Shown piece by piece: positions 7,789 through 24,471 of a stretch of DNA of 64,000 nucleotides. The translations under genes and the position numbers were made by a program. Positions within the stretch are counted from its first letter, which is position 1. Every line of letters begins with the position of its first letter. The stretch covers positions 124,001 through 188,000 of the forward strand of contig NZ_QNRK01000008.1 of assembly GCF_003315135.1 (NCBI RefSeq), read 5' to 3'. Source of the DNA: Roseiarcus fermentans. Lineage in GTDB: Bacteria; Pseudomonadota; Alphaproteobacteria; Rhizobiales; Beijerinckiaceae. Below the pieces are notes generated by a model. The model made no database searches. It was given only the letters and a program-made list of their open reading frames with translations, and had not been told where the DNA came from.

Positions 7789-7849
7789 TGTGTTCCTCCT
7801 CGTCATCTGTTTGTTTATCATGCTCAGAGAGTTCTGTCGGAGCATTCGA

Positions 7850-9035: not shown

Positions 9036-9133
9036 TTTTTCTCTCCTCTCCTTGTACTCCATACATTGATATGGAGTTGCTCCATCGCAGCCGCGATGGA
9101 AACCAGCATAAGCGCTCCTCCTGCGCCTTCTTT

Positions 9134-10240: not shown

Positions 10241-11160
10241 CAGCGCCGTCCCTCAGACGAGAGCGCCAGAATATCGGCGATCGCTCGATTGAGCGGCGTC
10301 GCCGCCCCGACGGCGGCTCCGAGCCTTACGACGCCCCCACTCAGCCAAGGAGTCTCGAGCCGGTTTCCGCGTTCCATGTCGACAGCCATCGACGATGTCA
10401 TCGTTTCCGGCAGAGTGTCGCAGAACGCGAGGCGGCTTTCGGCGTAATCGGCAGCGAGCCCGACGCCTCTGGCGCGCCCGACCTGAACAACCTCGCGCAT
10501 GACGTCCAGGAGAAACGCGCGCGTCTGCGGATTTGAGCGGATCGGGCCGATCGTCGCGCGCATCGTGGCCGTCGTCGCTGAGAGCCCGACCAGAAAAACG
10601 AACTTCTCCCAAATCGCGCGCTGGATATCTCCACTCAGCTCGGCTTCGATGTTGGCCCGTTTGCACGCTTCCAGGAAAGCCTGGCATCGGGCCGAACGCC
10701 TGCCGTCGTACTCCCCGAATACAAGTCGCTGCATCGTTCCGGTATGAGCGATGACGCCCGGTTCAGCGATTGATGCGGCGATATAACTGACGCCGCCGAT
10801 GATCGCGTCGTCGCCGAGAACGCCGCGCAGAATATCGTCTTTGTCGACGCCGTTCTGGAACGATACGACGGCTGTTTCGCCCGAAACGAGAGGAGCCACG
10901 GCGCGTGCCGCCGCCTCGGTGTCCCACAGCTTGACCCCCAGGAGGACGAGGTCCACGCGGCCCAATTTTCGCGCGTCATCGCTGGCGACGACCTTTGGCA
11001 GGTGCAGATCGCCGAGCTGGCTCCTGATCCGCAACCCATCTTTCAGCAGCGTCGCGAGAGTCGCGCCCCTCGCGATGAAGACGACATCCGCGCCCCCTTT
11101 GGCGAGTCTGCCGCCGAAATAGCCGCCGACGCCCCCGGCCCCCATGATTGCGATTCGCAC
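10240..11160 (-). CDS. Ketopantoate reductase-family dehydrogenase (PanE/ApbA-like)
   Basis: About 306 residues from a GTG at 11160 with GGGAGGAG directly upstream; the longer frame to 11205 would start inside the operator. N-terminal Rossmann motif IAIMGAGGVGGYFGG, then SFQNGVDK and IWEKFVFLVGLSATTATMR with the catalytic Lys of the family. Members reduce 2-dehydropantoate to pantoate with NADPH, but paralogues in catabolic operons often act on other 2-oxo or 3-hydroxy acids. As the first gene of the TetR-controlled operon it is more likely a pathway enzyme than the pantothenate enzyme. Confidence 0.82.
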   Translation of the reverse strand: MRIAIMGAGGVGGYFGGRLAKGGADVVFIARGATLATLLKDGLRIRSQLGDLHLPKVVASDDARKLGRVDLVLLGVKLWDTEAAARAVAPLVSGETAVVSFQNGVDKDDILRGVLGDDAIIGGVSYIAASIAEPGVIAHTGTMQRLVFGEYDGRRSARCQAFLEACKRANIEAELSGDIQRAIWEKFVFLVGLSATTATMRATIGPIRSNPQTRAFLLDVMREVVQVGRARGVGLAADYAESRLAFCDTLPETMTSSMAVDMERGNRLETPWLSGGVVRLGAAVGAATPLNRAIADILALSSEGRR

Positions 11161-11189
11161 CGGATCTCCTCCCAATCGTCTTATCATTC

Positions 11190-11219
11190 TTGAATACTGA
11201 TTCAAAAACTCCGTGTCAA
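11190..11219 (-). promoter_or_regulatory. Operon promoter with perfect inverted repeat (putative TetR operator)
   Basis: On the minus strand TTGACA (11219-11214), 17 bp, then TATTCA (11196-11191) forms a sigma-70-type promoter for the operon starting at 11160. The spacer and -10 are covered by TTGAATACTGATTCAA (11190-11205), a perfect 6-bp inverted repeat with a 4-bp spacer. A repressor bound here would block the polymerase. The obvious candidate is the divergent TetR gene. Confidence 0.65.
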
Positions 11220-11365: not shown

Positions 11366-11397
11366 GCAGCCTCGTCAATGAGAATGTGCGCTCAGTA

Positions 11398-12012
11398 ATG
11401 GCTCGCCCCAAGCAGTTCGACCCCGAGATCGCCCTCGATTTGGCGGTCGACATTTTTTGGGAGAGCGGATTCGAGGCGACGAGCATTGAAAGGCTTTGCC
11501 GCCGCCTCAAGCTCAACCCCGGCAGCCTTTACGGCGCCTATGGGGATAAACGCGCGCTTTTCATCGCTATTCTCGACCGCTACGTCGACAAGGTTTCCCT
11601 CGAAGCGATCCAACGGATTTCCGGGAGCCCGTCGGGAATCTTAGGAATAGTCAACTATTTCGACTTTCTCATCGAAGCCATCCTCGGCGGCAAACGCCGT
11701 TGGGGGTGTCTGATCACCAATTCGCTGATCGAACTCGCGGCCCGCGAGCCCGAGATTGCGGCGAAGGTGGAATTGCACTTCACTCGGTTGGAGACTGCCT
11801 TCGCCAGCGCATTGGCGCGCGCGCAAGCCGCAGGTGAGTTGCGGCCCGGATTTGGGCCCGAGTCGGCGCCGTACTTCGTGTGCCTGGTGCAGGGCCTCAA
11901 CGTGCTTGCACGGACGAAGCCGACGCGCGCGCGGTTAAGGGCGATTGTCGACGTGGCGCTGGACCCGCTCCGCGACGGTGCGGCTCTGCTGAGTCCCAAA
12001 TCTGTCGCTTGA
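11398..12012 (+). CDS. TetR-family transcriptional regulator
   Basis: About 204 residues starting MARPKQFDPEIALDLAVDIFWESGFEATSIERL, a typical TetR N-terminal domain of the YcdC/AcrR kind, with the recognition helix in LNPGSLYGAYGDKRALF. The C-terminal domain (WGCLITNSLIELA, EIAAKVELHF) is the TetR_C_6-like ligand and dimerisation part seen in many catabolic repressors. A GTG four codons earlier is also possible. Divergently oriented to the eight-gene operon and next to the inverted repeat at 11190-11205, so it probably represses that operon until the substrate is present. Confidence 0.88.
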   Translation: MARPKQFDPEIALDLAVDIFWESGFEATSIERLCRRLKLNPGSLYGAYGDKRALFIAILDRYVDKVSLEAIQRISGSPSGILGIVNYFDFLIEAILGGKRRWGCLITNSLIELAAREPEIAAKVELHFTRLETAFASALARAQAAGELRPGFGPESAPYFVCLVQGLNVLARTKPTRARLRAIVDVALDPLRDGAALLSPKSVA

Positions 12013-12052
12013 CCGGTCTGCCTCGGCCAGATACTCATCAGTCGTCTGATGA
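12009..12052 (+). promoter_or_regulatory. Promoter with shared 18-bp operator, site 1 (pfpI remnant and gor)
   Basis: TTGACC (12009-12014), 17 bp, TACTCA (12032-12037). The dyad TCATCAGTCGTCTGATGA (12035-12052) overlaps the -10 end and the expected start site. The same 18 bp occur at 13946 and 21877, with a close variant at 23705. The -35 overlaps the last codons of the TetR gene. Confidence 0.8.
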
Positions 12053-12080
12053 CTTTCGGCGCGGACCAGCGAGCGAGGGC

Positions 12081-12245
12081 ATGCCAAAACGTCTGAATCC
12101 GACCCACGATCCCGCCGAATCGCTCGCGGCGACACATCCGCATCAGCGTCCCCCAGCGGAGGGCGACGAGGCGGTTGTGGCCGCGACTTGGAGAGCGTTC
12201 AGCGCCGGTCGCCGAAGCAGGCGCTTCGTCACGCCGTCTCGATAG
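12081..12245 (+). pseudogene. Truncated DJ-1/PfpI gene copy
   Basis: An ATG frame of 54 codons reading MPKRLNPTHDPAESLAATHP, then HQRPPAEGDEAVVAAT. It aligns with the first 36 or so residues of the intact PfpI protein at 21929 (MPKVLILTGDAAEALEVIYP, HQRLTEEGYEAVVAAL), including the same distance from the upstream operator. After that the sequence diverges and the nucleophile-Cys half is missing. Non-conservative changes such as VLI to RLN in the first strand suggest decay. It ends ten bases before glutathione reductase and may now serve only as its leader. Confidence 0.8.
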
Positions 12246-12254
12246 ATCGCTAAG

Positions 12255-13643
12255 ATGACTGGCGTCTCGAGCTTTCCCGTCGACCTGTTCGTCATTGGCG
12301 CCGGATCGGGCGGCGTGCGCGCGGCGAGGATCGCCGCCGGCCATGGGGCGCGCGTGATGATCGCCGAGGAATTCCGCATCGGCGGCACATGCGTCATCCG
12401 AGGCTGCGTGCCCAAGAAGCTGCTGGTTTACGCCAGCCGCTTCGCCGACGATTTTTGCGACGCCCGCGGCTATGGTTGGAATGTCGGCGAGACCAGCTTC
12501 GATTGGCTGGCCATGGTCGCAGCCAAAGAAAAAGAAATCAGCCGATTGTCGGCAATCTATCGCGAAAATCTCGAAAAGGCCGGCGTCGACCTCGTCGAAG
12601 AGCGCGCCGAGATCGCGGCGCCGCGATCGGTGCGGTTGGCCAGCGGGCGTGTGATCAACGCAAAACACATTCTCATCGCCTCTGGCGCCACGCCGGAACT
12701 GGCGCCGTCGATTCCGGGCCTCGAACACGCGATTACCTCGAACGAAATCTTCGATCTGAAATCGTTCCCAAAGCGCCTGATGATCGTTGGCGGCGGTTAC
12801 ATCGCGGTCGAGTTCGCGTCGCTATTCGCTAAGCTCGGAGCCAAAGTCACGCAGGTGATGCGCGCGAGCAACATTCTTCGCGGTTTCGACGAGGATATGC
12901 GCGTCGGATTGGCGGAAGAGCTCGGCCATTCGGGTGTAACGTTCGCCACTGGCTGTTTGCCGACGCGGATCGAAAAACGGGCGGGAGCGCTCGACGTCGC
13001 GCTGTCGAACGGCGACAACCTCGTGGTCGATCAGGTTCTTATCGCCACAGGGCGTCGGCCAAACACGGCCAAGCTCGGACTGGAGAGCGTGGGGGTGGCC
13101 ACTGATGCGCACGGCGCCGTCAAAGTCGACGACGGCTCAACGACCAATGTCGCGACCATTCACGCCGTGGGCGACGTCACCAACCGTATCAATCTAACGC
13201 CGGTCGCGATCCGCGAAGGGCAGGCCTTCGCCGATCGCGTTTTTGGCGGCAAACCGGGCCTCGTCGATCATGACTGTGTGCCGAGCGCGGTGTTCACTAC
13301 GCCCGAAATCGGAACAGTCGGCTTGACGGAAGCGCTGGCGCGCGAGCGTTACCAGGTTGTCGACATTTATCGATCGCGTTTCCGGCCTTTGAAGGCGGCG
13401 GTTTCGGGTCGCTCGGAGCGCACGGTCATGAAGATCGTCGTCGACGGAACGTCCGATCAGATCCTCGGCGCCCACATTCTCGGCCATGAAGCAGGCGAAA
13501 TGATCCAACTTCTGGCCATCGCAGTGAAGATGAAAGCGACCAAAGCCGACCTTGACGCAACGATGGCGGTTCACCCCACCGCCGCCGAGGAGCTCGTCAC
13601 AATGCGCACTCGCACAGCGCGCTTCATCCACGAACGCGACTGA
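12255..13643 (+). CDS. gor: Glutathione-disulfide reductase
   Basis: 462 residues, class I pyridine-nucleotide disulfide reductase. FAD-binding GAGSGGVRAARIAA (15-28), redox pair in GGTCVIRGCVPKKL (Cys46, Cys51), NADPH-binding GGGYIAVEFAS, FAD motif HAVGDVTNRINLTPVA, and the C-terminal HPTAAEE with the active-site His-Glu. It reduces glutathione disulfide with NADPH in the cytoplasm. Here it lies under operator site 1 and close to two glutathione transferase genes, so it probably keeps glutathione reduced while the cluster is in use; a housekeeping copy elsewhere in the genome is possible. Confidence 0.93.
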   Translation: MTGVSSFPVDLFVIGAGSGGVRAARIAAGHGARVMIAEEFRIGGTCVIRGCVPKKLLVYASRFADDFCDARGYGWNVGETSFDWLAMVAAKEKEISRLSAIYRENLEKAGVDLVEERAEIAAPRSVRLASGRVINAKHILIASGATPELAPSIPGLEHAITSNEIFDLKSFPKRLMIVGGGYIAVEFASLFAKLGAKVTQVMRASNILRGFDEDMRVGLAEELGHSGVTFATGCLPTRIEKRAGALDVALSNGDNLVVDQVLIATGRRPNTAKLGLESVGVATDAHGAVKVDDGSTTNVATIHAVGDVTNRINLTPVAIREGQAFADRVFGGKPGLVDHDCVPSAVFTTPEIGTVGLTEALARERYQVVDIYRSRFRPLKAAVSGRSERTVMKIVVDGTSDQILGAHILGHEAGEMIQLLAIAVKMKATKADLDATMAVHPTAAEELVTMRTRTARFIHERD

Positions 13644-13912
13644 AGCGAGCGATCGCCGTCGCCGCTCGCGCGGTTCTTCGACGCTCGAACGCGCCATGGC
13701 GTCGGCCTGGTCTCGGAAGGTAGCGAGCCCACGGCTTTCCCTGGCGCCTTGCGCGGCGTGATCCCACTGACCGTAAACCAAAATCAGATCGGCGGTCGAT
13801 CTCTGACCTGCTGTCGCCCGGCTGGGCGAGGCGGCCGCGCTGGGCGCGTCGCGGCATCGAGACATTTTGAACGAAAGAAGCCGCTGCGCCTGGCCGCGCC
13901 GGCGCGAGCGGA

Positions 13913-13963
13913 TTGACACCATCAAAAGCCGCCGCTAACGTGATGTCATCAGTCGTCTGATGA
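13913..13963 (+). promoter_or_regulatory. Promoter with shared 18-bp operator, site 2 (main catabolic/transport operon)
   Basis: TTGACA (13913-13918), 17 bp, TAACGT (13936-13941). The dyad TCATCAGTCGTCTGATGA (13946-13963) lies over the expected transcription start, a classic repressor position. The first gene begins at 14053 after a leader of about 100 nt. About 270 bp between gor and this promoter hold nothing recognisable. Confidence 0.82.
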
Positions 13964-14052
13964 ATGCGAAGCACGCAGACGAAGTTAGACGGGAAGGGTG
14001 GGTCTCCGTAGGAGAAGCCTGTCTCCTTCGCCAACACGGGAGGAAGCGAAGC

Positions 14053-14823
14053 ATGCGTGAGTTCAAGGATTACGCCGAAAAATACTCGCACATCCGGATG
14101 GACCGTCGAGACGGCATTTTGGAGATAACTTTCCACAGCGACGGGGGGACCCTGGTTTGGGGCGGCGGGCCGCACGGGCAGTTGGGACCGGCCTTCCACG
14201 ACATCGCCCAGGATCGAGAAAACAGACTCGTCATCATGACGGGCACGGGCGACGCCTTCATCGAAGAGATCAACGCCGAGATCCTTGGCGAGCGGTTGCC
14301 AAAGAACAAAATCACGCCGATGACCTGGGATCACATCTACAGCGACGCCAAGCGCCTGCTGATGAACCTTCTCGACATCGAGGTTCCGATCATCGCTGCG
14401 GTGAATGGCCCGGTTAACATCCACGCCGAGCTCGCCGTGTTGAGCGATATCGTCCTGGCCGCTGATCACGCGACGTTCGCCGACGCGCCTCACTTTCCAA
14501 ACGGCCTCGTCCCGGGCGACGGAGTTCATGTGATCTGGCCTTATCTCCTGGGAAGGAACCGCGGCCGTTATTTCCTCCTGACCGGCCAACGGCTGTCGGC
14601 CCAAGAGGCTTTGCAACTGGGCGTCGTGAGTGAGGTCATGCCGGCCAACAAGCTGTTGCCGCGCGCCAGAGAATTGGCCCGGCAAATTCTCAACCAACCT
14701 CCTCTGACTGTGCGCTACGCCCGGGTGGTGATGACGCAAGAGCTCAAGAAACTCATGCTCGAACACCTGAGCCACGGGCTCGCCCTGCAAGGTCTGGCCG
14801 CCAACGAATATTGGCCCAGCTAG
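14053..14823 (+). CDS. 6-oxocamphor hydrolase-like crotonase-fold C-C hydrolase
   Basis: 256 residues from an ATG with GGGAGG ten bases upstream. It is a crotonase-superfamily protein, but closest in its landmarks to Rhodococcus 6-oxocamphor hydrolase (257 aa): LVW near 34, HDIAQDREN, LLDIEVPIIAAVNGPV, SDIVLAADHATF, PHFPNGLVPGDG, RGRYFLLTGQ. The residues matching His45, His122, His145 and Asp154 of that enzyme are His41, His124, His147 and Asp156; Glu244 appears as Gln246. That enzyme splits a cyclic beta-diketone by a retro-Claisen reaction. A similar ring-opening hydrolysis is the best guess here; a CoA-thioester substrate is less likely. First gene of the operon under operator site 2. Confidence 0.85.
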   Translation: MREFKDYAEKYSHIRMDRRDGILEITFHSDGGTLVWGGGPHGQLGPAFHDIAQDRENRLVIMTGTGDAFIEEINAEILGERLPKNKITPMTWDHIYSDAKRLLMNLLDIEVPIIAAVNGPVNIHAELAVLSDIVLAADHATFADAPHFPNGLVPGDGVHVIWPYLLGRNRGRYFLLTGQRLSAQEALQLGVVSEVMPANKLLPRARELARQILNQPPLTVRYARVVMTQELKKLMLEHLSHGLALQGLAANEYWPS

Positions 14824-15132
14824 TTCATCACGAAAAGGTAAGCGACGACCGCTCGCCGGTTGTCGATGGCCATCCTCGATTCCTGCGGCGGCATAAGAAG
14901 GGGGGGCACAGCCCCTCCCGCAGACGCGAAGCCCGCGAATACGACCTGGCGCCCGAATTGTCGGCGGGCTGGGCTCGCGCGACCGGGCCAAAGGTCATCG
15001 GGAACTCGATCTCCGACCAAAGAAAGTAAGACCGCAATGAAGCGGGAGATCGAGCCGGCAAAGACTGGACATGCGCTGCAGTTCGCGGCGACCGCGCAGC
15101 CAGTCAAATTCTATCGGGAGGAGACTAAACGG
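14824..15132. other. Leader between hydrolase and binding-protein genes
   Basis: About 310 bp. A G-rich inverted repeat (14900-14919, GGGGGGGC then GCCCCTCCC) could form a hairpin that lowers read-through or protects the upstream message. Remaining sequence has open frames on both strands but no recognisable protein and no promoter that I can defend. Confidence 0.45.
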
Positions 15133-16407
15133 ATGAGCGACACTGAGAACAGAGACGACATGGTCCAACAGTACCTGGAGGACTTTATCCCCAAGGGGCG
15201 CCGCGGCGACATCGAGCATCTCGCCGGCGAGGTCGTCAAAGGCGCAACGTCCCGGCGCAACTTCCTGACCCGGGCCGGTTCACTCGGCGTGGGGGCTACA
15301 GCGGCTTCGACGATTCTGACGGCGTTGGTCACCAGTGCGCCGAAGGCGTCGGCGGCGACCTCGGGCTCCGCAGAGGCGGGAAAGATTGCCGACAAATACA
15401 AGAACCTCACGATTGGCGTCCCGGTATACGCCTTCGCGGATGAAAACCAGATTACCATCGCCAATCAGATGCAAGCAGCGGCCCAGGCCGCCGGTTTGAA
15501 CTGGAAGTTCCTGTTGCAGGACGTAGCGGGTAGCGTGACGACGGCTGGGCAGGTGTTCGACAGTTTTGTCACCAGGGGCGTCGACGTTATCATAGATATT
15601 GTTATTCCGCCGCGGCTTGTCGCAGCGCAGATGGCAAAAGCTAAAGAGAAAAAAATACCAGTCTTTGGGATTTATACGTTCGGCACCAATTATCCCGACA
15701 TGGTGCTTGACTATGGCGGCGTGACCTCGGTCGAATCAAGCTTCGTCAGCAGCTATATGTTGTTCGATCAGCGAATTCGCCACCCCGGTAAGAAGAAGAT
15801 CAAGCTCGGAATCATCGACTCGCAGCTCGACGTCATCAAGCCTCGGCGCGGGGCCCTCGACGGCCTGTTGAGCCTGGCGATCAACAACGACTTCGAAGTG
15901 GTGCAGGTCATTCCCGATGTCGACCCGGCGAACACAGTGCAAGTGGCGACCCAGGTGACACAGGCGATTCTCACCAAGAATCCGGATGTCGACTGTCTGT
16001 GGGTGAGTTGGTCGCCGGCGCCAGTCCCGGTTGCGGCGGCGGTCGAACAGGCAGGAAAGGGCGACTCGTGCAAGGTCTATGGGCTCGTCGCCCAGAGCGC
16101 TGGCATACAGCTTATCAAAGAGGGCAAGAGTCCGCTGGTCGCAACCTCGTGGGTCGACTTGGTCTGGGTCGGCTGGGGCATGGTTGATCTCGTGCTCAAG
16201 CACCGCTCGGGCAAGCCGGTGGACCGTCTCGCGCTGCTTTCGACCAACGCTGTTCCGTGTGTCTGTATCGACCACGCCGAAGCGAACTCGTCAAATATTC
16301 AAATGGTGGATGTGTTGGGCGGAAAGCAGATTCCGACCTGGGTGTTTGCCCAAGGTTCGTACCGCGATCGGTTTGTCGCGTCTTGGAGCGAAAGTTATTC
16401 CTCGTAG
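15133..16407 (+). CDS. ABC transporter binding protein of the sugar type, Tat-exported
   Basis: 424 residues from ATG 15133 (GGGAGGAG about ten bases upstream); the frame is open further back. A 40-residue acidic N-terminal arm precedes a twin-arginine signal SRRNFLTRAGSLG (Arg41, Arg42) and a hydrophobic core, with a likely cut after KASA near residue 74. The mature part is a RbsB-like type I binding protein (DVIIDIVIPPRLVAAQMAKAK; IDSQLDVIKPRRGALDG). Most relatives use Sec, so the Tat signal implies folding or cofactor/ligand binding in the cytoplasm before export, or simply lineage habit. It should capture the substrate for the permease and ATPase downstream. Confidence 0.88.
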   Translation: MSDTENRDDMVQQYLEDFIPKGRRGDIEHLAGEVVKGATSRRNFLTRAGSLGVGATAASTILTALVTSAPKASAATSGSAEAGKIADKYKNLTIGVPVYAFADENQITIANQMQAAAQAAGLNWKFLLQDVAGSVTTAGQVFDSFVTRGVDVIIDIVIPPRLVAAQMAKAKEKKIPVFGIYTFGTNYPDMVLDYGGVTSVESSFVSSYMLFDQRIRHPGKKKIKLGIIDSQLDVIKPRRGALDGLLSLAINNDFEVVQVIPDVDPANTVQVATQVTQAILTKNPDVDCLWVSWSPAPVPVAAAVEQAGKGDSCKVYGLVAQSAGIQLIKEGKSPLVATSWVDLVWVGWGMVDLVLKHRSGKPVDRLALLSTNAVPCVCIDHAEANSSNIQMVDVLGGKQIPTWVFAQGSYRDRFVASWSESYSS

Positions 16408-16419
16408 TCAGCGAACTGC

Positions 16420-16449
16420 GCGCGCCCGGCTCTCCAGAGCGGGGCGCGC
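16420..16449 (+). terminator. Hairpin between binding protein and permease genes
   Basis: GCGCGCCC (16420-16427) pairs with GGGCGCGC (16442-16449), and inside it GCTCT (16429-16433) pairs with AGAGC (16436-16440) around a two-base loop, with one G-G mismatch. No T-run follows. Such hairpins after the first ABC gene often raise the amount of binding protein relative to the membrane parts by stabilising the upstream mRNA or partly ending transcription. Confidence 0.6.
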
Positions 16450-16534
16450 TGGCGGCAATCATCGGTAACGCCGTCGACGACGCGAAACGAGTCGGTTGAA
16501 GACGGCGAACGACTGTCAGGGGAGCGGGGACACG

Positions 16535-17566
16535 ATGACGATTCCAAGCGAGCGCACCACTCTTGCTTCTGCGCAGACCCGGATGGCCGACGCATCGAGC
16601 GCGCCGTCGGACAAAGCTCGGCGAACCGCTTTGGAGATGATCGCGCCGCTCGGCGTTCCGATTATGACGCTTGGCATGGTTGTTTACTTCGGTTTCGCCA
16701 CGACGGGGTTCTTGTCGATCGGCAACATCACCGACGTTTGCGCCAATTCTGCGCTGCCGGTCATCGTTGCCGTGGGGCTGACCATCCCGCTGGTGATGGG
16801 GGAGTTCGACCTCTCGATTTCAGCGCTTGCTGGTCTCGCCACCGTACTCTACGCGCAACTGGTGGCCAAGGAGGGGGTAGACCCTGCAATCGCAATCCTC
16901 GTCACGCTGGCCGCCTCGCTCGCGGCGGGGGCGTTCAATGGCTTTATGATCGCTTATGTCGGTCTGCCTGCCCTCGTTGCGACAATAGCGATGTCGTCGT
17001 TCCTGGTCGGCATGCAGTTTTATGTCTCCGGCAGCGTCCAGATCTATGGCGGATTCCCCGAGACGCTCGTCGCCTTCAGCCGTTCCAACATCGGCCCCGT
17101 CCCCACTTTGGTGATCGTCGCGGCGATCATCGTTCTTGGCGCCTGGGTCCTCCTCGAGAAAAGCGTATTTGGTCGACAGGTCAAGGCGGTTGGCGGGAAT
17201 GCCGAGGCGGCTCGCCTCGCTGGCGTGGACGTCCGGCGAACGCGGGCGCTCGGCTTTATCCTCTGCACGTTCGCGGCCAGTATCGCCGGCATCCTATTCG
17301 CCAATAAACAGGCTGTGGCTTACCCGCTCGCGGGCCTCGACGTCCTGCTGCCGTCGTTCACGGCGGCCTTTATCGGCGCAGCAACCTTCCGCTTCGGCGA
17401 ATTCAACATCTTTGGCACAGTCGTGGGCGTCCTGGTCACCCAGATCGCGGCGAATGGCCTGATTTTGCTCGGGGTGCCGAACTATACGACCTATGTCTTC
17501 CAGGGTGTGATCTTGCTGGTCGCGCTGATCTTCGCCCGCGTCGTCGCGTTGCGGGGGACGAATTAG
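16535..17566 (+). CDS. ABC transporter permease, RbsC/XylH type
   Basis: 343 residues from ATG 16535 (GGGGAG upstream); a TTG at 16496 in frame is less likely. Ten hydrophobic segments. Landmarks are MGEFDLSISALAGLATVLYA, matching the GxxDLSVG region, and GGNAEAARLAGVDVRRTRALGF, the coupling loop to the ATPase. A likely homodimer forms the inner-membrane channel. It lies between its binding protein and its ATPase. Confidence 0.9.
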   Translation: MTIPSERTTLASAQTRMADASSAPSDKARRTALEMIAPLGVPIMTLGMVVYFGFATTGFLSIGNITDVCANSALPVIVAVGLTIPLVMGEFDLSISALAGLATVLYAQLVAKEGVDPAIAILVTLAASLAAGAFNGFMIAYVGLPALVATIAMSSFLVGMQFYVSGSVQIYGGFPETLVAFSRSNIGPVPTLVIVAAIIVLGAWVLLEKSVFGRQVKAVGGNAEAARLAGVDVRRTRALGFILCTFAASIAGILFANKQAVAYPLAGLDVLLPSFTAAFIGAATFRFGEFNIFGTVVGVLVTQIAANGLILLGVPNYTTYVFQGVILLVALIFARVVALRGTN

Positions 17567-17586
17567 GGTGATGGGAGGCATTGGCC

Positions 17587-19290
17587 ATGACCAGCGATAG
17601 GGTGGAAGACAGGCGTCGTCCGGTGGTCCCGGTCCTCGACGTCAGGGAACTCTCGAAGCGCTATCCGGGGACACTGGCGCTCGACCGGGTCTCACTGCAC
17701 GTGGCGCCAAACGAGATCTTGGGGCTCGCGGGACACAACGGCGCCGGGAAGTCGACGCTGACGCGAATGCTCACGGGCGCCGGAAGGCCCGACTCGGGCG
17801 ACATGCTTCTGGACGGCCAGAGCATCAGGTTCCGCAGCCCGGACGACGCGATCACACACGGCGTTGCTCAGGTCCCGCAGCCGCTCATGATTATTCCGAA
17901 CCTGACCGGTAGGGAAAACCTGCTGCTCGGGATGCACACCAGACTGTTTCGGCCGGGTCGCGAGAACGGCGAGCAACTGTGGTTCGGCGGGAGCAAGAGC
18001 GCGGTGGCCGCTGTCGAGCTGATGGCCGAGCACCTGCACCTGACAAAGATCCTGAACGTAAAAGTTGGGCGGCTCCGTCCGGTGACTCAGCGCCTCATCA
18101 TGATCGGTCGCGCGCTTTTACGGAACCCGCGGCTGATCATCCTCGATGAGCCGACGGCGAATCTGGCGACGCCTGAAGTGGAGTTGCTGTTCTCGATTAT
18201 TCGTCCTCTGGCGCGGGACCGCGCCAGCGTCATTTACGTCACCCATCGACTCGACGAAATGCTCGACTTGTGCGACCGCGTCATCGTGATGCGGCAAGGA
18301 CGGGTCATCGCCGAGAAGGACGCCAGGATCCTCGACAAGAAGGAACTCAGCGGCCTCATCACCGGCGCAGATCTGTCGTCGAAAATAAAGACACTCGTGG
18401 CTGACGTCGACATCCATGGTCAGGTCCACGCCGGCGGGCCGTCGGCCGACAGGTCAAAAACCCCTCACGCCGGCGAAGAAGTCCTGTGCTGCGAGGATCT
18501 TTGTGCGCTGCCAAGGACACGCGGCGTCGACCTCAGGCTCCATCGGGGCGAGGTGCTCGGCATCGCCGGTCGCGACGGGTCGGGACGCACGAGCTTGTTG
18601 CGAACCCTTTGGGGCGATCGCCAGGTGACCAGCGGTCGCATCGTTGTCCGGGGCGTGCCGACTCGGTTGGCGAGCCCACGCGACGCAATCAAAGCCGGCT
18701 TCGCGTATTTGCCGGAGGAACGGGCGGCGAATGCTGTGTTTCCGTTGGCGAGCGTCGCTGCAAACGCGACGCTGCCATGGCTGTCGCGGTTCGCCGGGCC
18801 GGGCGGCCTCATGCGCGCACGTGAGGAGATTTCCAGCGTTTCAACGCTCTTGAAACGTCTCGACGTGCGACCGCTCAAAGGAGCGGCCTACGCCAGGATA
18901 GGGGCCTTCAGCGGCGGTAACCAGCAGAAGGTGGTGATCGCGCGCTGGCTCCTGGGCGGGGCGGACATTTTTCTGTTCGACGAGCCGACGCAAGGCATCG
19001 ATGTGGGCGCTCGGGAGCAAGTCTATGAGGTCATCCGCGAACTCGCCTCGGATGGAGCGGGGATCATCGTCGTATCCTCGGAAGCGGAGGAACTGGCGCG
19101 TTTGTGCAGCACCGTGCACCTGATGCGCGACGGCGCTGTCGTTCAAACGCTCGCAGGCGACGACGTAACGGAATCGGCGATCTCGCTTGCAATCGTCGCA
19201 GGGGAAATCGAAATCCCCGCCGCCGAGCCGTGGGTCGGGGCAGGCCGGGCGCGCGTCAGCGGACGATCGCCTCCGGACGCCGCCATATGA
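17587..19290 (+). CDS. ABC transporter ATPase, RbsA/XylG type with two nucleotide-binding domains
   Basis: 567 residues from ATG 17587, with GGGAGG eight bases upstream. Domain 1 has Walker A GHNGAGKSTL and Walker B LIILDEPTANL, but the usual LSGGQ signature is replaced by LRPVTQ. Domain 2 has the degenerate P-loop GRDGSGRTS that is normal for this family's second half, a good signature FSGGNQQKVVIARWLL and Walker B IFLFDEPTQGIDVGAR. About 70 residues of linker between domains are unusually polar. It powers the importer formed with the genes at 15133 and 16535. Confidence 0.9.
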   Translation: MTSDRVEDRRRPVVPVLDVRELSKRYPGTLALDRVSLHVAPNEILGLAGHNGAGKSTLTRMLTGAGRPDSGDMLLDGQSIRFRSPDDAITHGVAQVPQPLMIIPNLTGRENLLLGMHTRLFRPGRENGEQLWFGGSKSAVAAVELMAEHLHLTKILNVKVGRLRPVTQRLIMIGRALLRNPRLIILDEPTANLATPEVELLFSIIRPLARDRASVIYVTHRLDEMLDLCDRVIVMRQGRVIAEKDARILDKKELSGLITGADLSSKIKTLVADVDIHGQVHAGGPSADRSKTPHAGEEVLCCEDLCALPRTRGVDLRLHRGEVLGIAGRDGSGRTSLLRTLWGDRQVTSGRIVVRGVPTRLASPRDAIKAGFAYLPEERAANAVFPLASVAANATLPWLSRFAGPGGLMRAREEISSVSTLLKRLDVRPLKGAAYARIGAFSGGNQQKVVIARWLLGGADIFLFDEPTQGIDVGAREQVYEVIRELASDGAGIIVVSSEAEELARLCSTVHLMRDGAVVQTLAGDDVTESAISLAIVAGEIEIPAAEPWVGAGRARVSGRSPPDAAI

Positions 19291-19537
19291 TCGAGCGACG
19301 CGCCGCCCGCGGGAACGACGACAAAGTCGGAAGGCCCGCCCCCGCTTCGGATAGGTCCTTGACATCGCGGAAACCGATAGTCTCGGACTCGGCGTCGCAG
19401 ATTGTTCTGCGCGGAACGCCATCGCACTTGCGAGAACCGAGTTTCCGCTTCGATCTTTGTCCCGCTCAAGCTTCGGCGCGCGGCCTCACGGTGGTCCCGC
19501 GCATAAATCCAAAACGATAGCCCGATAGGAGAGCCCC

Positions 19538-20245
19538 GTGATCCGTTTCTATTTCCATCCGACGCCAAATCCCGCCAAAGTCGCGCTTTTCCTGGAGGAG
19601 ACCGGCGTGGCCTATGAAGTCGTTCCGGTCGACACGAGCAAAGGAGAGCAACATACGCCAGCCTTTCGCGCCATCAATCCGAATGGCAAGTTGCCAGCGA
19701 TCGTCGACACCCAGGGGCCCGGCGGCCGCGAGGCGAAGGTGTTCGATTCGAGCGCTATCCTTCTCTACCTCGGCGAAAAGACAGGGCGCTTCATGGGCGC
19801 CCCCGCCGATCGTCCTGAACTGCTTTCCTGGCTCTTCTTCGTCGCGACGGGGATGGGCCCATTCTCGGGCCAGGCGGTGCATTTCCAGCATGCCGCTCCC
19901 GAAAACATCCCGTATGCGGTGAACCGATATCGACGCGAGGTTGAACGGCACTATCGTGTCTTGGATGAGCGTCTGAGCGGACGCGATTACATCGTCGGCA
20001 ACGAATATTCCATCGTCGACATGTCCGCTTGGGGCTGGCTGGATCGGGCGCCCAGAGTGCTGCCCGGCAGCGCTGACCCGGTTGCCGCCTTCCCGAACCT
20101 CAAGCGCTGGTTCCAAACGGTTGACGCGCGACCCGCGGTGGCGCGCGCCCGCGCCGTCGGCACGGATCACGCCTTCAAGAAGGAGATGGACGAAGAGACG
20201 CGGCGGGCGCTCTTCCCATCGAACTATCCGGCGATCACGAAGTGA
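19538..20245 (+). CDS. Glutathione S-transferase, Nu/YfcG-like (GST-A)
   Basis: 235 residues from a GTG at 19538 with TAGGAGAG upstream. N-terminal thioredoxin-like domain MIRFYFHPTPNPAKVALFLEE, cis-Pro in NPNGKLPAIVD, FDSSAILLYLGEKTG for the glutathione gamma-glutamyl site, and an all-helical C-terminal domain (FVATGMGPFSGQAVHFQHAAPE, IVGNEYSIVDMSAWGW). It resembles E. coli YfcG/YghU, which act as glutathione-dependent disulfide reductases, and the beta-etherase-related group. It may add or remove glutathione from an intermediate. Starts about 250 bp after the ATPase, probably on the same message. Confidence 0.9.
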   Translation: MIRFYFHPTPNPAKVALFLEETGVAYEVVPVDTSKGEQHTPAFRAINPNGKLPAIVDTQGPGGREAKVFDSSAILLYLGEKTGRFMGAPADRPELLSWLFFVATGMGPFSGQAVHFQHAAPENIPYAVNRYRREVERHYRVLDERLSGRDYIVGNEYSIVDMSAWGWLDRAPRVLPGSADPVAAFPNLKRWFQTVDARPAVARARAVGTDHAFKKEMDEETRRALFPSNYPAITK

Positions 20246-20695
20246 GTCAGCGCCCCGCTTTCGCATTGCTCGGCCGCCACTAGATCCGACTGGAGCCGGC
20301 CGACAACAGCGGAAAGACAGCGCGATGGCTCAGCCGCAGAGCCTGGTGGGGGCCGGCGCCCTCGGCGCTGAGCAGAACGATCCGCGGCCGCCGCAGGTGC
20401 TTCTGCGGCGCGTTGCGGTCCTGGACCGGAGCGAGGAGCCGATCAACGTCGGCAAGCGCGACGGAAATGGAAACGCCAGAGCGCAGCCCGCAGGCTCGCG
20501 CGCCGCAAGTCCACAAGGAATCTCCCCCGGGATTCCCAGTCAGACGCGATTGATTAGCCGGAACCATTGTGGACATCGGCTTCGTCGCTTCGATCCCGAC
20601 GATTTGGATTTAGCGTCGTCGCTGGCGGCATGGCGGCGAGATGGCGGCGGCCTCGCGCCAGGCTGGCGACCGTTTCCGATGGAGAGGAGTTCCCG
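20246..20695. other. Intergenic stretch with a transposase scrap
   Basis: 450 bp between GST-A and the dehalogenase. The only recognisable content is an N-terminal fragment of an IS630-type transposase on the minus strand (20307-20477). No terminal inverted repeats were found by eye. Confidence 0.5.
20307..20477 (-). pseudogene. IS630-family transposase N-terminal remnant
   Basis: The minus strand encodes GVSISVALADVDRLLAPVQD followed by RNAPQKHLRRPRIVLLSAEGAG, close to the N-terminus of IS630-type transposases (pattern RNxPQKHVWRAxIVLLxADG). The helix-turn-helix that should follow (TGKSKTCVWRWQ type) is garbled and the DDE domain is absent. About 57 codons survive. It marks a former insertion between GST-A and the dehalogenase gene. 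Confidence 0.65.
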
Positions 20696-21430
20696 ATGAC
20701 AATTCGCGCGTTGGTATTCGATGCATACGGCACGCTCTATGACGTGCAGTCGGTGCGCGGCCTTGCGACTGAACTCTGCGGCGACAAAGGCGATTTCATT
20801 ACGCAGGCGTGGCGATTGAAGCAACTCGAATACACGTGGCTGCGCGGCCTAATGCGGGCGTATGAGGACTTCTCAGTTGTCACCCGTGCCGCGCTCGAGT
20901 TCGCGTTGGATAGGGCCGGCGTCACGCCGACACCTGCGCTCTGTGAGGAGTTGATGGCGAAATACCTCGATCTCGACTTGTATCCGGAAGCGCGCCAGGC
21001 GCTGGCGGCGCTTTCCGGGTATAAACTCGCGATCCTTTCGAACGGCAGCCCCGACATGCTCGCTGCGCTCGTCGAGGGGTCGGGGATCGCTCCTTTTTTT
21101 GCGGACGTGATCAGCGTGGACAGGGCGAAGACCTTTAAGCCCGACCCGAGGTGCTATGACCTCGTGGCGCCGGCGCTCGGCGTCGAGAGGCACGAGGTGT
21201 TGTTCGTTTCGTCAAACAGCTTTGATGTCGCGGGCGCGAAGCAATTCGGGCTCAAGGTCGCCTGGATCGATCGTGTTGGTCGCGCGCCCCCACCGATGAA
21301 CTCCGATGTTGGCCCCGCGGAATTCTACCGGTTGCTGCGCGGCGGCCCCGAACGGCTCGGGCAGGACGCGGACTTTCGGATCGGCTCCCTCACCGACTTG
21401 CAGGGAGTCCTATCCGGTTTGGCGAAGTGA
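20696..21430 (+). CDS. Haloacid dehalogenase, type II (L-2-haloacid dehalogenase family)
   Basis: 244 residues from an ATG with GGAGAGGAG upstream. All landmarks of DehII/DhlB are present: nucleophile Asp9 in FDAYGTLYDV, an Arg in the cap helices, LSNGSPDML, KTFKPDPRCYDL with the catalytic Lys and Tyr, and VSSNSFDVAGAKQFGLKVAWIDR with the Ser/Asn/Asp cluster. The family removes halide from 2-haloalkanoic acids with inversion at C2 in the cytoplasm. This argues that the compound imported by the adjacent ABC system may be halogenated, or that a haloacid arises from it. Last gene of the site 2 gene set. Confidence 0.88.
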   Translation: MTIRALVFDAYGTLYDVQSVRGLATELCGDKGDFITQAWRLKQLEYTWLRGLMRAYEDFSVVTRAALEFALDRAGVTPTPALCEELMAKYLDLDLYPEARQALAALSGYKLAILSNGSPDMLAALVEGSGIAPFFADVISVDRAKTFKPDPRCYDLVAPALGVERHEVLFVSSNSFDVAGAKQFGLKVAWIDRVGRAPPPMNSDVGPAEFYRLLRGGPERLGQDADFRIGSLTDLQGVLSGLAK

Positions 21431-21846
21431 GTCGGGGAGGCGGGCCCGCTGTCGCCTCAGCCATCGTCTTCGACGGGGCCCGGGCGCCGGCGCGCGGCAT
21501 CCGGATCGGGGGCTGTCGCTTTGTCTGCACAGCCTCGAGTGGACAGGAGGGAGGGTCGATTGCCGCCTCGGTCGTCGACGGCGCGCCGCCCCGGCGCCAT
21601 CGTCACCGCGACCGAGGTTCGGCCGGCCACGAAGGAACAGGCCGGTCGCGGGTCCGGGTCGGCGGGCGCAGGCGGCCGAACAAGACCCTCCTGGGAATCC
21701 GCGACGGCCACGATCGACAGCGGCGACTGCGTGGCCCGCGCGGCCGGAGGCCCTGTAGCGCGCGAGCGTCGTCGCAACAGGGCGCGCTGGGCGACAAATT
21801 TGTTTTGCACGGGGTCTGCATGAAACTTTGATGGAAAGCGGGAGGC
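21431..21846. other. Intergenic stretch without a recognisable gene
   Basis: About 415 GC-rich bases between the dehalogenase gene and operator site 3. Open frames on both strands are low-complexity (Arg/Gly/Pro-rich) and have no ribosome binding site. I see no promoter, repeat or RNA here until the TTGACG at 21847. Confidence 0.5.
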
Positions 21847-21894
21847 TTGACGTCGGGGCGGCGCCGCATTATTAATTCATCAGTCGTCTGATGA
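21847..21894 (+). promoter_or_regulatory. Promoter with shared 18-bp operator, site 3 (pfpI)
   Basis: TTGACG (21847-21852), 17 bp, TATTAA (21870-21875). The dyad TCATCAGTCGTCTGATGA (21877-21894) covers the expected start of transcription; the pfpI ATG follows at 21929. Confidence 0.82.
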
Positions 21895-21928
21895 CATGTC
21901 ATGTGTCGGCCGACAAAGGGAGTGAGCG

Positions 21929-22516
21929 ATGCCGAAAGTTTTGATTCTCACTGGCGATGCCGCCGAAGCGCTCGAAGTGATATATCCGCATCAACGACTC
22001 ACGGAGGAGGGCTATGAGGCGGTTGTGGCCGCTTTGTCTCCGAAGTTGTTGCAATTGGTGGTCCACGAAATGGTGCCAGGCAACGACACTTTCGTCGAAA
22101 AACCGGGCTATCATTGGCCGGCCGACGTAGCGTTCTCCGATGTTGACCCATCGGACTATGCTGCGATAATCATCCCCGGGGGGCGCGCTCCTGAGTATAT
22201 CCGCAACAATCCAGACTTCATTCGCATCGTTCAATACTTTTTCAAAGAGAACCTGCCGGTGGCGCACTTGTGCCACGCCTCCATAGCGCTGGCCACGGCC
22301 GGCGTTTTGAAGGGGCGTCGTATCGCCGCGTTTCCTGAACTGAAATCCGATGTCGAGGCGGCGGGCGCCGAATTCGTGAATGCTGAGGTTGTCGTGGACG
22401 GACCCATGGTGTCGGCTCGCGCGTATCCGGACCACCCCGCCTGGATGCGAGAATTCATGCGGGTGCTTCGCAAGCGGTCGCCGGTTGCCGTGCCGGTCGC
22501 GACGGCAGCCGAATAG
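21929..22516 (+). CDS. DJ-1/PfpI-family protein
   Basis: 195 residues with GGGAG upstream of the ATG. Family landmarks: MPKVLILTGDAAEALEVIYP, the acidic residue in GGRAPEYI and the nucleophile elbow HLCHASIAL (Cys near 111). Relatives include stress proteases, glyoxalase III-type deglycases and isonitrile hydratases. Its own promoter carries the cluster operator, so it is co-regulated with the transporter and hydrolases and may detoxify a reactive carbonyl intermediate. A truncated copy lies at 12081. Confidence 0.9.
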   Translation: MPKVLILTGDAAEALEVIYPHQRLTEEGYEAVVAALSPKLLQLVVHEMVPGNDTFVEKPGYHWPADVAFSDVDPSDYAAIIIPGGRAPEYIRNNPDFIRIVQYFFKENLPVAHLCHASIALATAGVLKGRRIAAFPELKSDVEAAGAEFVNAEVVVDGPMVSARAYPDHPAWMREFMRVLRKRSPVAVPVATAAE

Positions 22517-22532
22517 AAGAAGATGTTCCGGC

Positions 22533-22559
22533 GCCTCCGACCCTTGTGTGGTCGGAGGC
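22533..22559 (+). terminator. Hairpin after pfpI
   Basis: GCCTCCGACC (22533-22542) and GGTCGGAGGC (22550-22559) form a perfect 10-bp stem with a 7-base loop, 17 bases after the pfpI stop codon. There is no T-run, so it may be a weak or Rho-assisted terminator, or a 3' end stabiliser. Confidence 0.6.
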
Positions 22560-22704
22560 CAGAGGGAAATTGATTCGCGCAGCACTTGTTGGAATCGTCA
22601 GGGTCGGCTTATTGAGATCAAGCAATGCGGCATCCCCGGCCGTTTTGTGATGATTATTTGACGCCCCCCGTTCATGGCAGCGGGGCCGACGATAGGCGGT
22701 TGCG

Positions 22705-23487
22705 ATGAATCATGTGAATGAACGTTTGGAGCCGCGGCGGAGTTTCCGTCCCGTGAGACGCGCGCAGCTCGTCGACGAGGTCATAGAGCAGTTGCGGCTG
22801 CGGATCAGCTCGGGGGACTTTAAGGTTGGCGACCGATTGCCCGCGGAGACGGTCCTTGTTTCCGAGCTGGGCGTCGGTCGAACAACCCTTCGGGAAGCAG
22901 TCCGTGTTCTCGAGCACGCCGGACTGTTCGAGGTTCGTCAGGGTTCGGGCACCTACCTCCGGTCCAGCACCGACGCCAAAGCCTTGGCTCCCCGATTGCG
23001 CCACGCCCGCGTTCTCGACGTCCTCGATGTCCGACGCGCGCTGGAGATCGAAATGACGCGAATGGCGGCGGCCTACCGGACGGAGGCTGCTCTGGTCGCT
23101 CTGAGGGACTCGTTGGAACGTATGCGGCGCGGCATGGAATCGGGCGATCAACGGGTCTTCATCGACGCAGAGATGGAAATATACCGCGTCATCGCCGCCG
23201 GCACTCAAAACGCGATCATGATCGAGATCTATGGGCTGTTTTCCGAAGCGCTGCGGCTTGCGCTCACTCAGATCATCGCCATTCCTGGTGTGATGCCCGA
23301 TTGCTTGGCCCGTCACGAACAGCTGTTCAAGGCGATCGAGGCTCGGGACGTGGATAAAGCCGAAGCCGTCGCAAAGGCCCATTTGGGTCGAGTGACACGG
23401 CTGGTCCAGGAGGTCTTGGGCGATGCGCGTGTCGACGAAGCCGGCAAAAAGGACGCGCAAGCCGTCCAGCCGCTGCGGGCTCCCTGA
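22705..23487 (+). CDS. GntR-family regulator with FCD domain (probable repressor of the cluster)
   Basis: 260 residues. N-terminal winged helix QLVDEVIEQLRLRISSGDF, then LPAETVLVSELGVGRTTLREAVRVLEHAGLFEVRQGSGTYL, the GntR signature. The C-terminal all-helical FCD domain (LDVRRALEIEMTRMAA; FHxxI-like and HEQLFKAIEARDVDKAEAVAKAHL) binds a small carboxylate, often via metal-coordinating His and Asp residues. It lies between operator sites 3 and 4 and is the only regulator in this region, so it is the best candidate for binding the four dyads. No copy of the dyad was seen before its own start. Confidence 0.9.
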   Translation: MNHVNERLEPRRSFRPVRRAQLVDEVIEQLRLRISSGDFKVGDRLPAETVLVSELGVGRTTLREAVRVLEHAGLFEVRQGSGTYLRSSTDAKALAPRLRHARVLDVLDVRRALEIEMTRMAAAYRTEAALVALRDSLERMRRGMESGDQRVFIDAEMEIYRVIAAGTQNAIMIEIYGLFSEALRLALTQIIAIPGVMPDCLARHEQLFKAIEARDVDKAEAVAKAHLGRVTRLVQEVLGDARVDEAGKKDAQAVQPLRAP

Positions 23488-23678
23488 TCCTCGAGGAGTG
23501 TCTCTCGCGGGCGCTCACGCAGCCGTCGGGCCTTGAGCTCAGGGCGATAGACGCTGTGGCGGACGTTTGGCGGGCGGCTCGATCGGCGGCAACCCCACGT
23601 CGCCTCTTTTTCGCATCTGCGCCGCCTCGGTTCGTATCTCGATTCGATCGTTGTGCCGGCTGGCCTGATCACCGGTGA

Positions 23679-23722
23679 TTGACAGGGACGAAATCGAGGC
23701 CTAGTCATCAGACGTCTGCTGA
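23679..23722 (+). promoter_or_regulatory. Promoter with variant 18-bp operator, site 4 (decayed hydrolase copy)
   Basis: TTGACA (23679-23684), 17 bp, TAGTCA (23702-23707). The dyad here is TCATCAGACGTCTGCTGA (23705-23722): its centre GACGTC is perfectly symmetric, but one outer base differs from the other sites. The -35 to dyad distance equals that of site 1. Confidence 0.75.
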
Positions 23723-23790
23723 ATTAGTGATCAGGCAGGATCGTGCTCTCTTGGAGAAACATCCGTCGGTCGCGGACGTGGGAGGCCAGG

Positions 23791-24350
23791 ATGGACCGAA
23801 CGGGCGCGATTCTCGAGATTACTCTTGATGGTAACGGAGGCGATCTGGTCTGGGGTGGGGGGCCGCATGGTCAGCTCGGGCCCGCCTTCCACGATATCGC
23901 ACAGGATCGAGAAAATAAGCTCGTTATCATGACGGGATCCGGCGACGCATTCACTGAACAGATCGATGCCGAAATACTCGGTGAGCGGCTACCCAAAAAT
24001 AAGGTAACGCCGTTAATTTGGGGCCATATACACGCCAAACGCTTGTTGAGGAATCTTCTCGACATCGAGGTTCCGATCATCTCCGCGGTCAACGGGCCGG
24101 TCACGGGGCAACGGCTCTCAGCGCACGAGGCGCTTCAACTCGGGGGCAGTGAAATCATGCCCGCGGCAAGGCTGACGCCGCGTGCTCGGGAACTCGCTCG
24201 GCCAATTCTGAATCAGCCGCCTCTCACTGTCCGCTCGGCTCGGGTCGCGATGATCAGGAACTTAAGCAACGCCTGCTGGAACATCTCAGTCATGCTTGGC
24301 TCTCCAGGGCCTCGCCGCGAATGCGCGCGCGCAACATGGGGAAAGACTGT
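23791..24350 (+). pseudogene. Internally deleted second copy of the C-C hydrolase
   Basis: The frame from ATG 23791 (GGGAGG upstream) reads MDRTGAILEITLDGNGGDLV, then WGGGPHGQLGPAFHDIAQDREN, nearly the same as the intact gene at 14053. After VNGPV it jumps straight to TGQRLSAHEALQL: about 55 residues (122-176 of the intact enzyme) are missing in frame, removing His124, His147 and Asp156. Two codons are also lost near 24030. Around 24255 a frameshift garbles the last 25 residues. The first 13 residues of the enzyme are not recognisable. No catalytic protein can result. Confidence 0.85.
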
Positions 24351-24353
24351 CGG

Positions 24354-24416
24354 TTCAAAAGAGGTGTTGACGAGAAAACAAGGCGCGCTCTGTTTCCTTC
24401 CAATTACCAGCCATAA
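24354..24416 (+). pseudogene. Last 20 codons of a lost GST-A copy
   Basis: The frame FKRGVDEKTRRALFPSNYQP with its own TAA matches the end of GST-A at 20245 (FKKEMDEETRRALFPSNYPA). It follows directly on the broken hydrolase copy, so everything that lies between hydrolase and GST-A in the intact set (the ABC transporter and most of the GST) has been deleted here. Confidence 0.75.
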
Positions 24417-24471
24417 GCGCAATGCCTAAACCCACTGAACGTCCCCTCGGACAAACAGGAGCGACTGAACA

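Follow-up and report, generated by a model that had tools for sequence, protein, structure and literature searches.

The locus and its proteins

The DNA analyzed here, which we call the window, is a 64,000-nucleotide stretch from Roseiarcus fermentans (bases 124001-188000 of contig C8, in a genome of 6.79 Mb). It carries a gene for a C-C bond hydrolase followed by genes for an ABC importer, a glutathione S-transferase (GST) and a haloacid dehalogenase. A preliminary description of this DNA had proposed that these genes, with gor and pfpI under the same operator, make up one import and degradation module. All the genes it named are present and open, and all the genes from 11386 to 25176 lie on the plus strand. 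The principal ones are listed here:

12255-13643, plus strand, gor, the second glutathione reductase gene of the genome (TIGR01424, 618 bits; cut-off 606)
14053-14823, plus strand, 6-oxocamphor/beta-diketone hydrolase family enzyme with a crotonase fold (1o8u, E 1e-83)
15133-16407, plus strand, highly divergent CUT2-type binding protein exported by twin-arginine translocation (Tat) (Peripla_BP_4, E 1.5e-20)
16535-17566, plus strand, CUT2-type permease (BPD_transp_2, E 7e-38)
17587-19290, plus strand, double-domain CUT2 ATPase (two ABC_tran stretches; AraG 353 bits, cut-off 689)
19538-20245, plus strand, GST-A, YfcG-like, Nu class (YfcG 5hfk, E 2e-53; NaGSTNu 5uun, 6e-35)
20696-21430, plus strand, type II L-2-haloacid dehalogenase, or HAD (TIGR01428, 207 bits against a cut-off of 125)
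21929-22516, plus strand, PfpI/DJ-1 family protein (TIGR01382, 151 bits against 139)
22705-23487, plus strand, GntR/FCD regulator, the proposed repressor of the four operators described below (GntR and FCD domains; between operators 3 and 4)
23791-24429, plus strand, second beta-diketone hydrolase, a pseudogene (active-site block deleted, frame lost near the end)
24472-25176, plus strand, GST-B, YfcG-like (YfcG 5hfk, E 1e-85; NaGSTNu 5uun, 5e-44)

By its sequence, the hydrolase clearly belongs to the 6-oxocamphor/beta-diketone hydrolase family, in agreement with the preliminary description. It matched 6-oxocamphor hydrolase (OCH) as listed and Anabaena beta-diketone hydrolase (ABDH; 2j5g) at E 3e-74, versus only 1e-23 for the best chain named enoyl-CoA hydratase. 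Because the longer frame from 13960 starts inside an operator, the start codon is most likely ATG 14053. Three residues, His124, His147 and Asp156, were invariant in all 96 aligned hydrolase rows, and we take these to be His122, His145 and Asp154 in OCH numbering. To our knowledge, OCH-type enzymes cleave C-C bonds without coenzyme A (CoA), and the natural substrate is known for few members. A study of ABDH gives its catalytic residues as His43, His144, Asp153 and Glu243 (PMC3584854); the window hydrolase carries His41, His147 and Asp156 at the first three positions and Gln246 at that of the Glu. The broken second copy is 80% identical to the live enzyme over residues 14-121 and 75% over residues 176-232, with nothing between, and the missing block (residues 121 to 176) holds the invariant His and Asp.

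The CUT2 importer gene set is complete, with binding protein, permease and double ATPase together. The binding protein carries a Tat-type motif (SRRNFL), and its best solved relative was found at E 3e-7. None of the NCBIfam sugar-specific equivalogs reached its cut-off for any of the importer proteins. We abandoned an attempt to infer a ligand from the structure of the binding protein, whose model, computed from a single sequence, was poor (mean predicted local distance difference test score 41).

GST-A and GST-B are 45% identical to each other, and both have TPN at residues 9-11, the site of the class Thr/Asn pair; the TPN of GST-A aligns with that of YfcG. Kinship to YfcG, YghU and NaGSTNu together with this pair places both proteins, as judged from sequence, in the Nu class, to which GST-A had already been assigned. 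Nu-class enzymes bind two molecules of glutathione or one of glutathione disulfide (GSSG) and have disulfide reduction or glutathione lyase activity, and the beta-etherase pathway includes a lyase step that forms GSSG (PMC5892560). GSSG from a Nu-class lyase reaction would therefore give a clear role to an additional Gor in the same regulon; the other gor copy of the genome, on contig C5, is 64% identical. The dehalogenase scores above its family cut-off and aligns, conserved motifs included, with 1qq5 (E 4e-59, residues 3-243) and 1jud (9e-44, residues 3-198), which argues for the type II 2-haloacid dehalogenase identity first given to it. We take 1qq5 to be Xanthobacter DhlB, and the catalytic residues among the motifs are those we presume from general knowledge.

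These genes lie on a genomic island, whose limits are as follows:

1969-3063, flanking lacI (GC step and congener synteny)
3064-27330, genomic island, outer limits, no strand (low GC, core about 3.9-25.4 kb; lacI on one side and a 2-hydroxyacid dehydrogenase gene on the other)
27331-28374, flanking 2-hydroxyacid dehydrogenase gene (GC step and congener synteny)

In a GC profile run to 40 kb, the island (about 3.9-25.4 kb) had a GC content of 0.58-0.65 versus 0.67-0.72 on both sides, and third-position GC was 0.58-0.77 in island genes versus 0.84-0.95 in genes beyond with a family match. Homologues of the two flanking genes are adjacent, 0.1-0.7 kb apart, in four of the seven same-genus genomes fetched (L190, L191, L192 and L195). 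In L189 the contig ends near the 2-hydroxyacid dehydrogenase gene, and next to that gene we detected no lacI in L193 or L194. The hydrolase was absent from all 10 congeners at E<=1e-40, as was the PanE gene of the island (see below) at 1e-70. Since the flanking genes adjoin in four congeners and the hydrolase and PanE genes are absent from all 10, about 24 kb has been inserted, and we read the block as acquired DNA that probably entered the species by horizontal transfer.

By self-comparison, the island carries near each end one copy of a direct repeat (3572-3809 and 26671-26914; about 240 bp, 88.6% identity), which could be a mark of the insertion event. The second copy lies inside a TPR-sulfotransferase gene and the first inside an unassigned frame. 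A further pair of direct repeats (25221-25473 and 27112-27362, 86.6% identical) brackets the TPR-sulfotransferase gene at 25443-27125, and internal repeats of about 350-1170 bp with 66-72% identity occur at 61930-63450. Minus-strand genes at 4176-8632 and 8709-9062 encode an HPP membrane protein, an MFS transporter, an alpha/beta hydrolase, an SDR protein and a DUF1330 protein. Given their low GC, these genes probably belong to the same island, and they are possible further pathway steps.

Four promoters with a common operator

An 18-bp palindrome, TCATCAGnnnnCTGATGA, occurs at five places in the 6.8-Mb genome when up to one arm mismatch is allowed, and four of these are in the island. The fifth, on contig C45, is the sole further place genome-wide at that stringency. 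The four sites and an associated relic are:

12035-12052, operator 1, TCATCAGTCGTCTGATGA, before the pfpI relic and gor (TTGAC 26 bp upstream)
12081-12185, plus strand, decayed 5' fragment of pfpI (12035-12184 versus 21877-22032, 74.5% identical)
13946-13963, operator 2, promoter of the hydrolase operon (TTGAC 33 bp upstream)
21877-21894, operator 3, pfpI promoter (TTGAC 30 bp upstream)
23705-23722, operator 4, promoter of the second hydrolase gene (13 of 14 arm bases; TTGAC 26 bp upstream)

The sequence TCATCAGTCGTCTGATGA is identical at 12035, 13946 and 21877, and the copy at 23705 retains 16 of the 18 bases, one arm base and one central base being changed. The window held 10 matches to the palindrome at up to three mismatches versus a mean of 1.4 in shuffled sequence, and none of 100 shuffles reached 10. 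TTGAC stands 26-33 bp upstream of all four operators, with a chance of about 0.04 per site; the 12035/21877 and 13946/23705 sites are related pairs, so that these spacings count as fewer than four independent observations. Synonymous sites are saturated between the two hydrolase genes (synonymous divergence, dS, 2.7; ratio of nonsynonymous to synonymous divergence, dN/dS, 0.04 over 103 codons), yet both promoters have kept TTGACA and agree at 16 of 18 operator bases. Conservation of the operator despite this distance points to selection on it.

The relic between operator 1 and gor comprises 35 codons with 60% identical residues, dS 0.53 and dN/dS 0.45. Because this decayed pfpI start comes between the two, the operator before gor seems to be a copied pfpI promoter that gor acquired. 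We rejected a single segmental duplication of a pfpI-hydrolase-GST unit, since the ages differ: dS is 2.7 for the hydrolases and 0.53 for pfpI, and the GSTs are only 45% identical. The identical sites bear out the proposal that gor and pfpI share an operator with the hydrolase set, and shared control of gor, the hydrolase operon, pfpI and the second hydrolase gene appears firmer than first claimed.

A candidate regulator lies among the operators. The protein at 22705-23487 has both GntR and FCD domains, and its gene starts 0.8 kb after operator 3 and ends 0.2 kb before operator 4. We infer from this arrangement that the GntR/FCD protein binds TCATCAGnnnnCTGATGA. FCD regulators usually sense carboxylates, which fits acids as the products of the hydrolase and the dehalogenase.

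Gene neighborhoods elsewhere

We sought 16 window proteins at E<=1e-8 in 93 loci containing a hydrolase relative, drawn from six related genomes, seven plasmids and 80 genome contigs (the best 80 of at least 549 confirmed relatives; several loci are shorter than 20 kb). The binding protein, permease, PfpI, dehalogenase and GntR protein had no relative in any of the 93. For the binding protein, plasmids gave no match at 1e-20, genome contigs no confirmed relative in a single-protein search, which detects close relatives only, and 384 other genomes of the class two weak relatives (27-28%). A phylum sample of 397 other genomes contained nothing matching the permease at 1e-60, and in the 15 plasmid rows listed its relatives were 33-37% identical. 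After these plasmid, genome-contig and phylum searches we rejected a conserved hydrolase-importer module, and with it the part of the preliminary description that joined the two in one recurring import and degradation unit. Co-occurrence, which that description had offered as its own check, was found for the GST with the dehalogenase and never, within these searches, for the hydrolase with the importer.

The nearest hydrolase among the best 80, 77% identical and from Bradyrhizobium sp. Ai1a-2, is an isolated gene next to a lysR-like one (identified by eye). We surveyed 74 of the 80 genome-contig loci for neighbors up to 4 kb from the hydrolase and found a luciferase-like family at 22 loci and an SDR family at 21 (both named by eye); neither is in the window hydrolase operon. 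In another hydrolase clade, seven of eight members (L011, L012, L015, L029, L031, L118 and L127; the exception is L103) have a GST, 38-41% identical to GST-B, within 4 kb. Where annotated, these loci also carry peroxiredoxin-like/alkyl-hydroperoxide-reductase and alkene-reductase/NADH-flavin-oxidoreductase genes, and the set looks like enone or diketone detoxification. On the Rhizobium plasmid WYJ-E13, relatives of the hydrolase (45%), GST-A (75%) and the dehalogenase (43%) occur together in about 11 kb.

A different set of genes does recur, and it lies partly outside the stretch first described, with two genes on the minus strand:

9134-10240, minus strand, enolase-superfamily enzyme, mandelate-racemase subgroup, KxR variant (MR_MLE Pfam; 3ugv, E 1e-93; mandelate racemase, 6e-81)
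10240-11205, minus strand, PanE/ApbA-like 2-keto acid reductase (ApbA and ApbA_C; TIGR00745, 242 bits against 141)
11386-12012, plus strand, TetR-family regulator (family match; relatives adjoin PanE and enolase genes elsewhere)

Together with the two YfcG-like GSTs and the type II dehalogenase, these genes make up what appears to be a real, though not universal, cassette. Plasmid 1 of Polaromonas sp. JS666 (NC_007949) has consecutive relatives of GST-B (63%), GST-A (54%), the enolase-superfamily enzyme (54%), PanE (60%) and TetR (57%), with a dehalogenase relative (42%) 7 kb from GST-A. Genome G424 has consecutive dehalogenase (71%), PanE (60%), TetR (54%) and GST-A (75%) relatives. In G501, of the same genus, a 72% dehalogenase adjoins a 77% GST-A, a 69% dehalogenase lies near a 77% GST-B and a 76% GST-A, and PanE, enolase and TetR form a group interrupted by one more frame. 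GST-A was found (E<=1e-60) on 29 plasmid records, of which at least 11 were also among the 60 of 64 records compared for the dehalogenase; on these 11, which measure 138 kb to 2.1 Mb, the two genes are separated by gaps of 78 bp to 16.4 kb. The chance product for this closeness, a log10 of -20, is overstated, since an identical gap of 78 bp occurs in 4 of the 11, which may represent a single event. In the class sample, GST-A was found at E<=1e-70 in 17 of 384 other genomes, and the 20 GST-A regions from these genomes contained dehalogenase in 3, GST-B in 6, TetR in 8 and PanE in 1 (1e-8). Three genomes of one genus (L223, L224 and L225) have a GST-A/GST-B pair (71-72%/78%) beside another CUT2 permease and ATPase, 27% and 31-32% identical to those of the window.

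The enolase-superfamily motif is KxR in the window and in all fetched rows above 45% identity, and KxK in two rows at 42-44%, a difference that may reflect a functional split inside the mandelate-racemase subgroup. The cassette, found in both alpha- and betaproteobacteria and in part on plasmids, merits the assignment of a role. Judged by titles and the starts of abstracts, the open-licence literature held no paper on the window gene set, none joining 6-oxocamphor hydrolase with an ABC transporter, none on Polaromonas JS666 glutathione S-transferase and haloacid dehalogenase, and none on haloacid dehalogenase with mandelate racemase, 2-dehydropantoate 2-reductase and glutathione S-transferase.

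A composite island and its possible working

We give roughly even credence to a composite, acquired catabolic or detoxification island, in which a C-C hydrolase and an importer have been joined to a haloacid/glutathione cassette, probably under GntR regulation. Within the reach of our searches, this combination of genes, on an acquired island, is specific to the locus rather than a conserved pathway. It would have two layers. The first is the cassette found elsewhere (TetR, PanE-like reductase, enolase-superfamily enzyme, two YfcG-like GSTs and type II dehalogenase), whose most likely substrates are short acids that are halogenated or electrophilic in some other way. The second, so far seen here only, would consist of the four promoters with one operator, serving pfpI, gor (via the copied pfpI promoter) and two hydrolase genes, one of them dead, with the live hydrolase followed by the CUT2 importer, GST-A and the dehalogenase behind the same operator. 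The GntR/FCD protein would occupy the promoter palindromes and be released when a carboxylic acid binds its FCD domain, the inducing acid being either the substrate or a keto or hydroxy acid made from it. The importer would take up a polar compound, and the hydrolase would split, independently of CoA, the C-C bond between two carbonyl groups. The GSTs may remove a leaving group or glutathione adduct, yielding GSSG to be reduced by the additional Gor, and the dehalogenase would convert a 2-halo acid to a 2-hydroxy acid. Because one sharp operator links the hydrolase with an importer and with enzymes of glutathione metabolism and dehalogenation, the importer ligand and the regulator inducer would point to the substrate.

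Several observations weigh against this reading. The hydrolase-importer pairing was seen nowhere else in the DNA searched, and the functional unity of the set rests on one locus. The gaps after the hydrolase, ATPase and GST-A genes (310, 248 and 451 bp) are large for the inside of an operon, and with gaps of this size the single promoter claimed earlier is conjectural. No plus-strand terminator-like site lies in any of the three, but the TTGAC promoters were likewise missing from the plus-strand output of a sigma-70 consensus scan. Co-transcription across them, the order of the steps and the substrate are what we would propose from the gene content. The catalytic Glu of the hydrolase family, present in 93 of 96 rows, is replaced by Gln in the window enzyme and in 2 of the 95 other rows; the DNA of the broken copy also aligns Gln at this position, so that Gln looks like a lineage trait and not a recent defect. 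Nothing in the importer or the hydrolase implies a halogenated substrate, and the polar, perhaps glycosylated, alicyclic or halogenated ligand suggested earlier is a guess. Mandelate racemase has KxK, and the KxR motif weakens a simple hydroxyacid-racemase step for the enolase-superfamily enzyme, which we regard as doubtful. As to the cassette, 18 of the 29 GST-A plasmids were not among the 60 of 64 records of the dehalogenase comparison, a HAD annotated beside GST-A on a Bradyrhizobium Ash2021 plasmid did not match the window HAD at 1e-5, and only 3 of the 20 GST-A regions of the class sample have a dehalogenase and 1 has PanE.

A stress response is a less likely alternative. The regulon would answer reactive electrophiles or reactive chlorine, with Gor, the GSTs, PfpI and the dehalogenase repairing or removing damage, the hydrolase breaking reactive diketones and the importer a passenger. 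On two Rhizobium plasmids, GST-A relatives adjoin genes of peroxiredoxin-like, SDR and DUF1109/sigma-factor type, and the GST near the hydrolase in the clade described above fits such a role. A survey of chlorite-dismutase neighborhoods includes an anti-sigma factor (DUF1109) that senses reactive chlorine species, a glutathione-reductase-like family, peroxiredoxin, a glutathione S-transferase family and an enoyl-CoA hydratase/isomerase family, and it discusses the haloacid dehalogenase family (PMC9751292). However, a full three-part importer under the same operator and the PanE, enolase and dehalogenase genes suggest metabolism, and no DUF1109, ECF sigma, peroxiredoxin or Msr family was found among the 40 window proteins scanned with Pfam, a subset of the frames.

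We consider it unlikely that the region is a chance assembly at an insertion hot spot, where unrelated cassettes (hydrolase, importer, GST/dehalogenase and PfpI), some under a copied promoter, have no joint function. The broken hydrolase copy and the pfpI relic do indicate flux, the island is bordered by direct repeats, the hydrolases closest to this one are separate from the rest of the window genes, and the importer partner was not repeated elsewhere in our searches. Against this, the four promoter/operator sites are related, and one has persisted while synonymous sites reached saturation; the genes from 11386 to 25176 keep to one strand throughout, and the GST, PanE, TetR and dehalogenase genes are found together repeatedly. 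The TetR protein at 11386, whose gene ends 22 bp before operator 1, might bind the palindrome instead of GntR, which would also count against our reading, but this is improbable: its relatives in Polaromonas (57%) and G501 (51%) lack an exact palindrome match in the fetched DNA, no palindrome with up to three mismatches lies between the PanE and TetR genes of the window, and the GntR gene sits between operators 3 and 4.

The composite island has one more specific form, to which we give little credence, namely, a new catabolic route. In it, a carboxylate-sensing GntR regulon would have a Tat-exported CUT2 binding protein that imports a cyclic 1,3-dicarbonyl bearing a halogen or leaving group, or its precursor; the Gln-variant, CoA-independent hydrolase would open the ring, and the Nu-class GST, its own Gor and the L-2-haloacid dehalogenase would finish the degradation.

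Known systems share parts of this arrangement. The JS666 plasmid 1 cluster holds GST-A, GST-B, enolase, PanE, TetR and HAD relatives (42-63%) within about 9 kb, in another gene order; among the hits at 1e-5 in 22 kb there was no relative of the hydrolase, importer, gor, pfpI or GntR gene, and an acetate symporter is annotated beside the dehalogenase. The CUT2 sugar importers AraFGH, RbsABC and YtfQRT likewise consist of a binding protein, one permease and a double ATPase, whereas the window permease and ATPase score far under the equivalog cut-offs and the window binding protein has no NCBIfam match. OCH (1o8u/1szo) and ABDH (2j5g/2j5s) match the hydrolase over nearly its full length and share its catalytic His and Asp positions; the window enzyme differs in having Gln for the family Glu, six additional residues relative to 1o8u near position 75-80, and an importer and a GST in the same presumed operon. 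YfcG/YghU and NaGSTNu are the nearest solved kin of both GSTs, although GST-B (295 bits) and GST-A (185 bits) remain under the NCBIfam YfcG cut-off of 332, and the L-2-haloacid dehalogenases 1qq5 and 1jud share their motifs with the window enzyme, a predicted dehalogenase. The parts are of known kinds, and what is new is their combination and its regulation.

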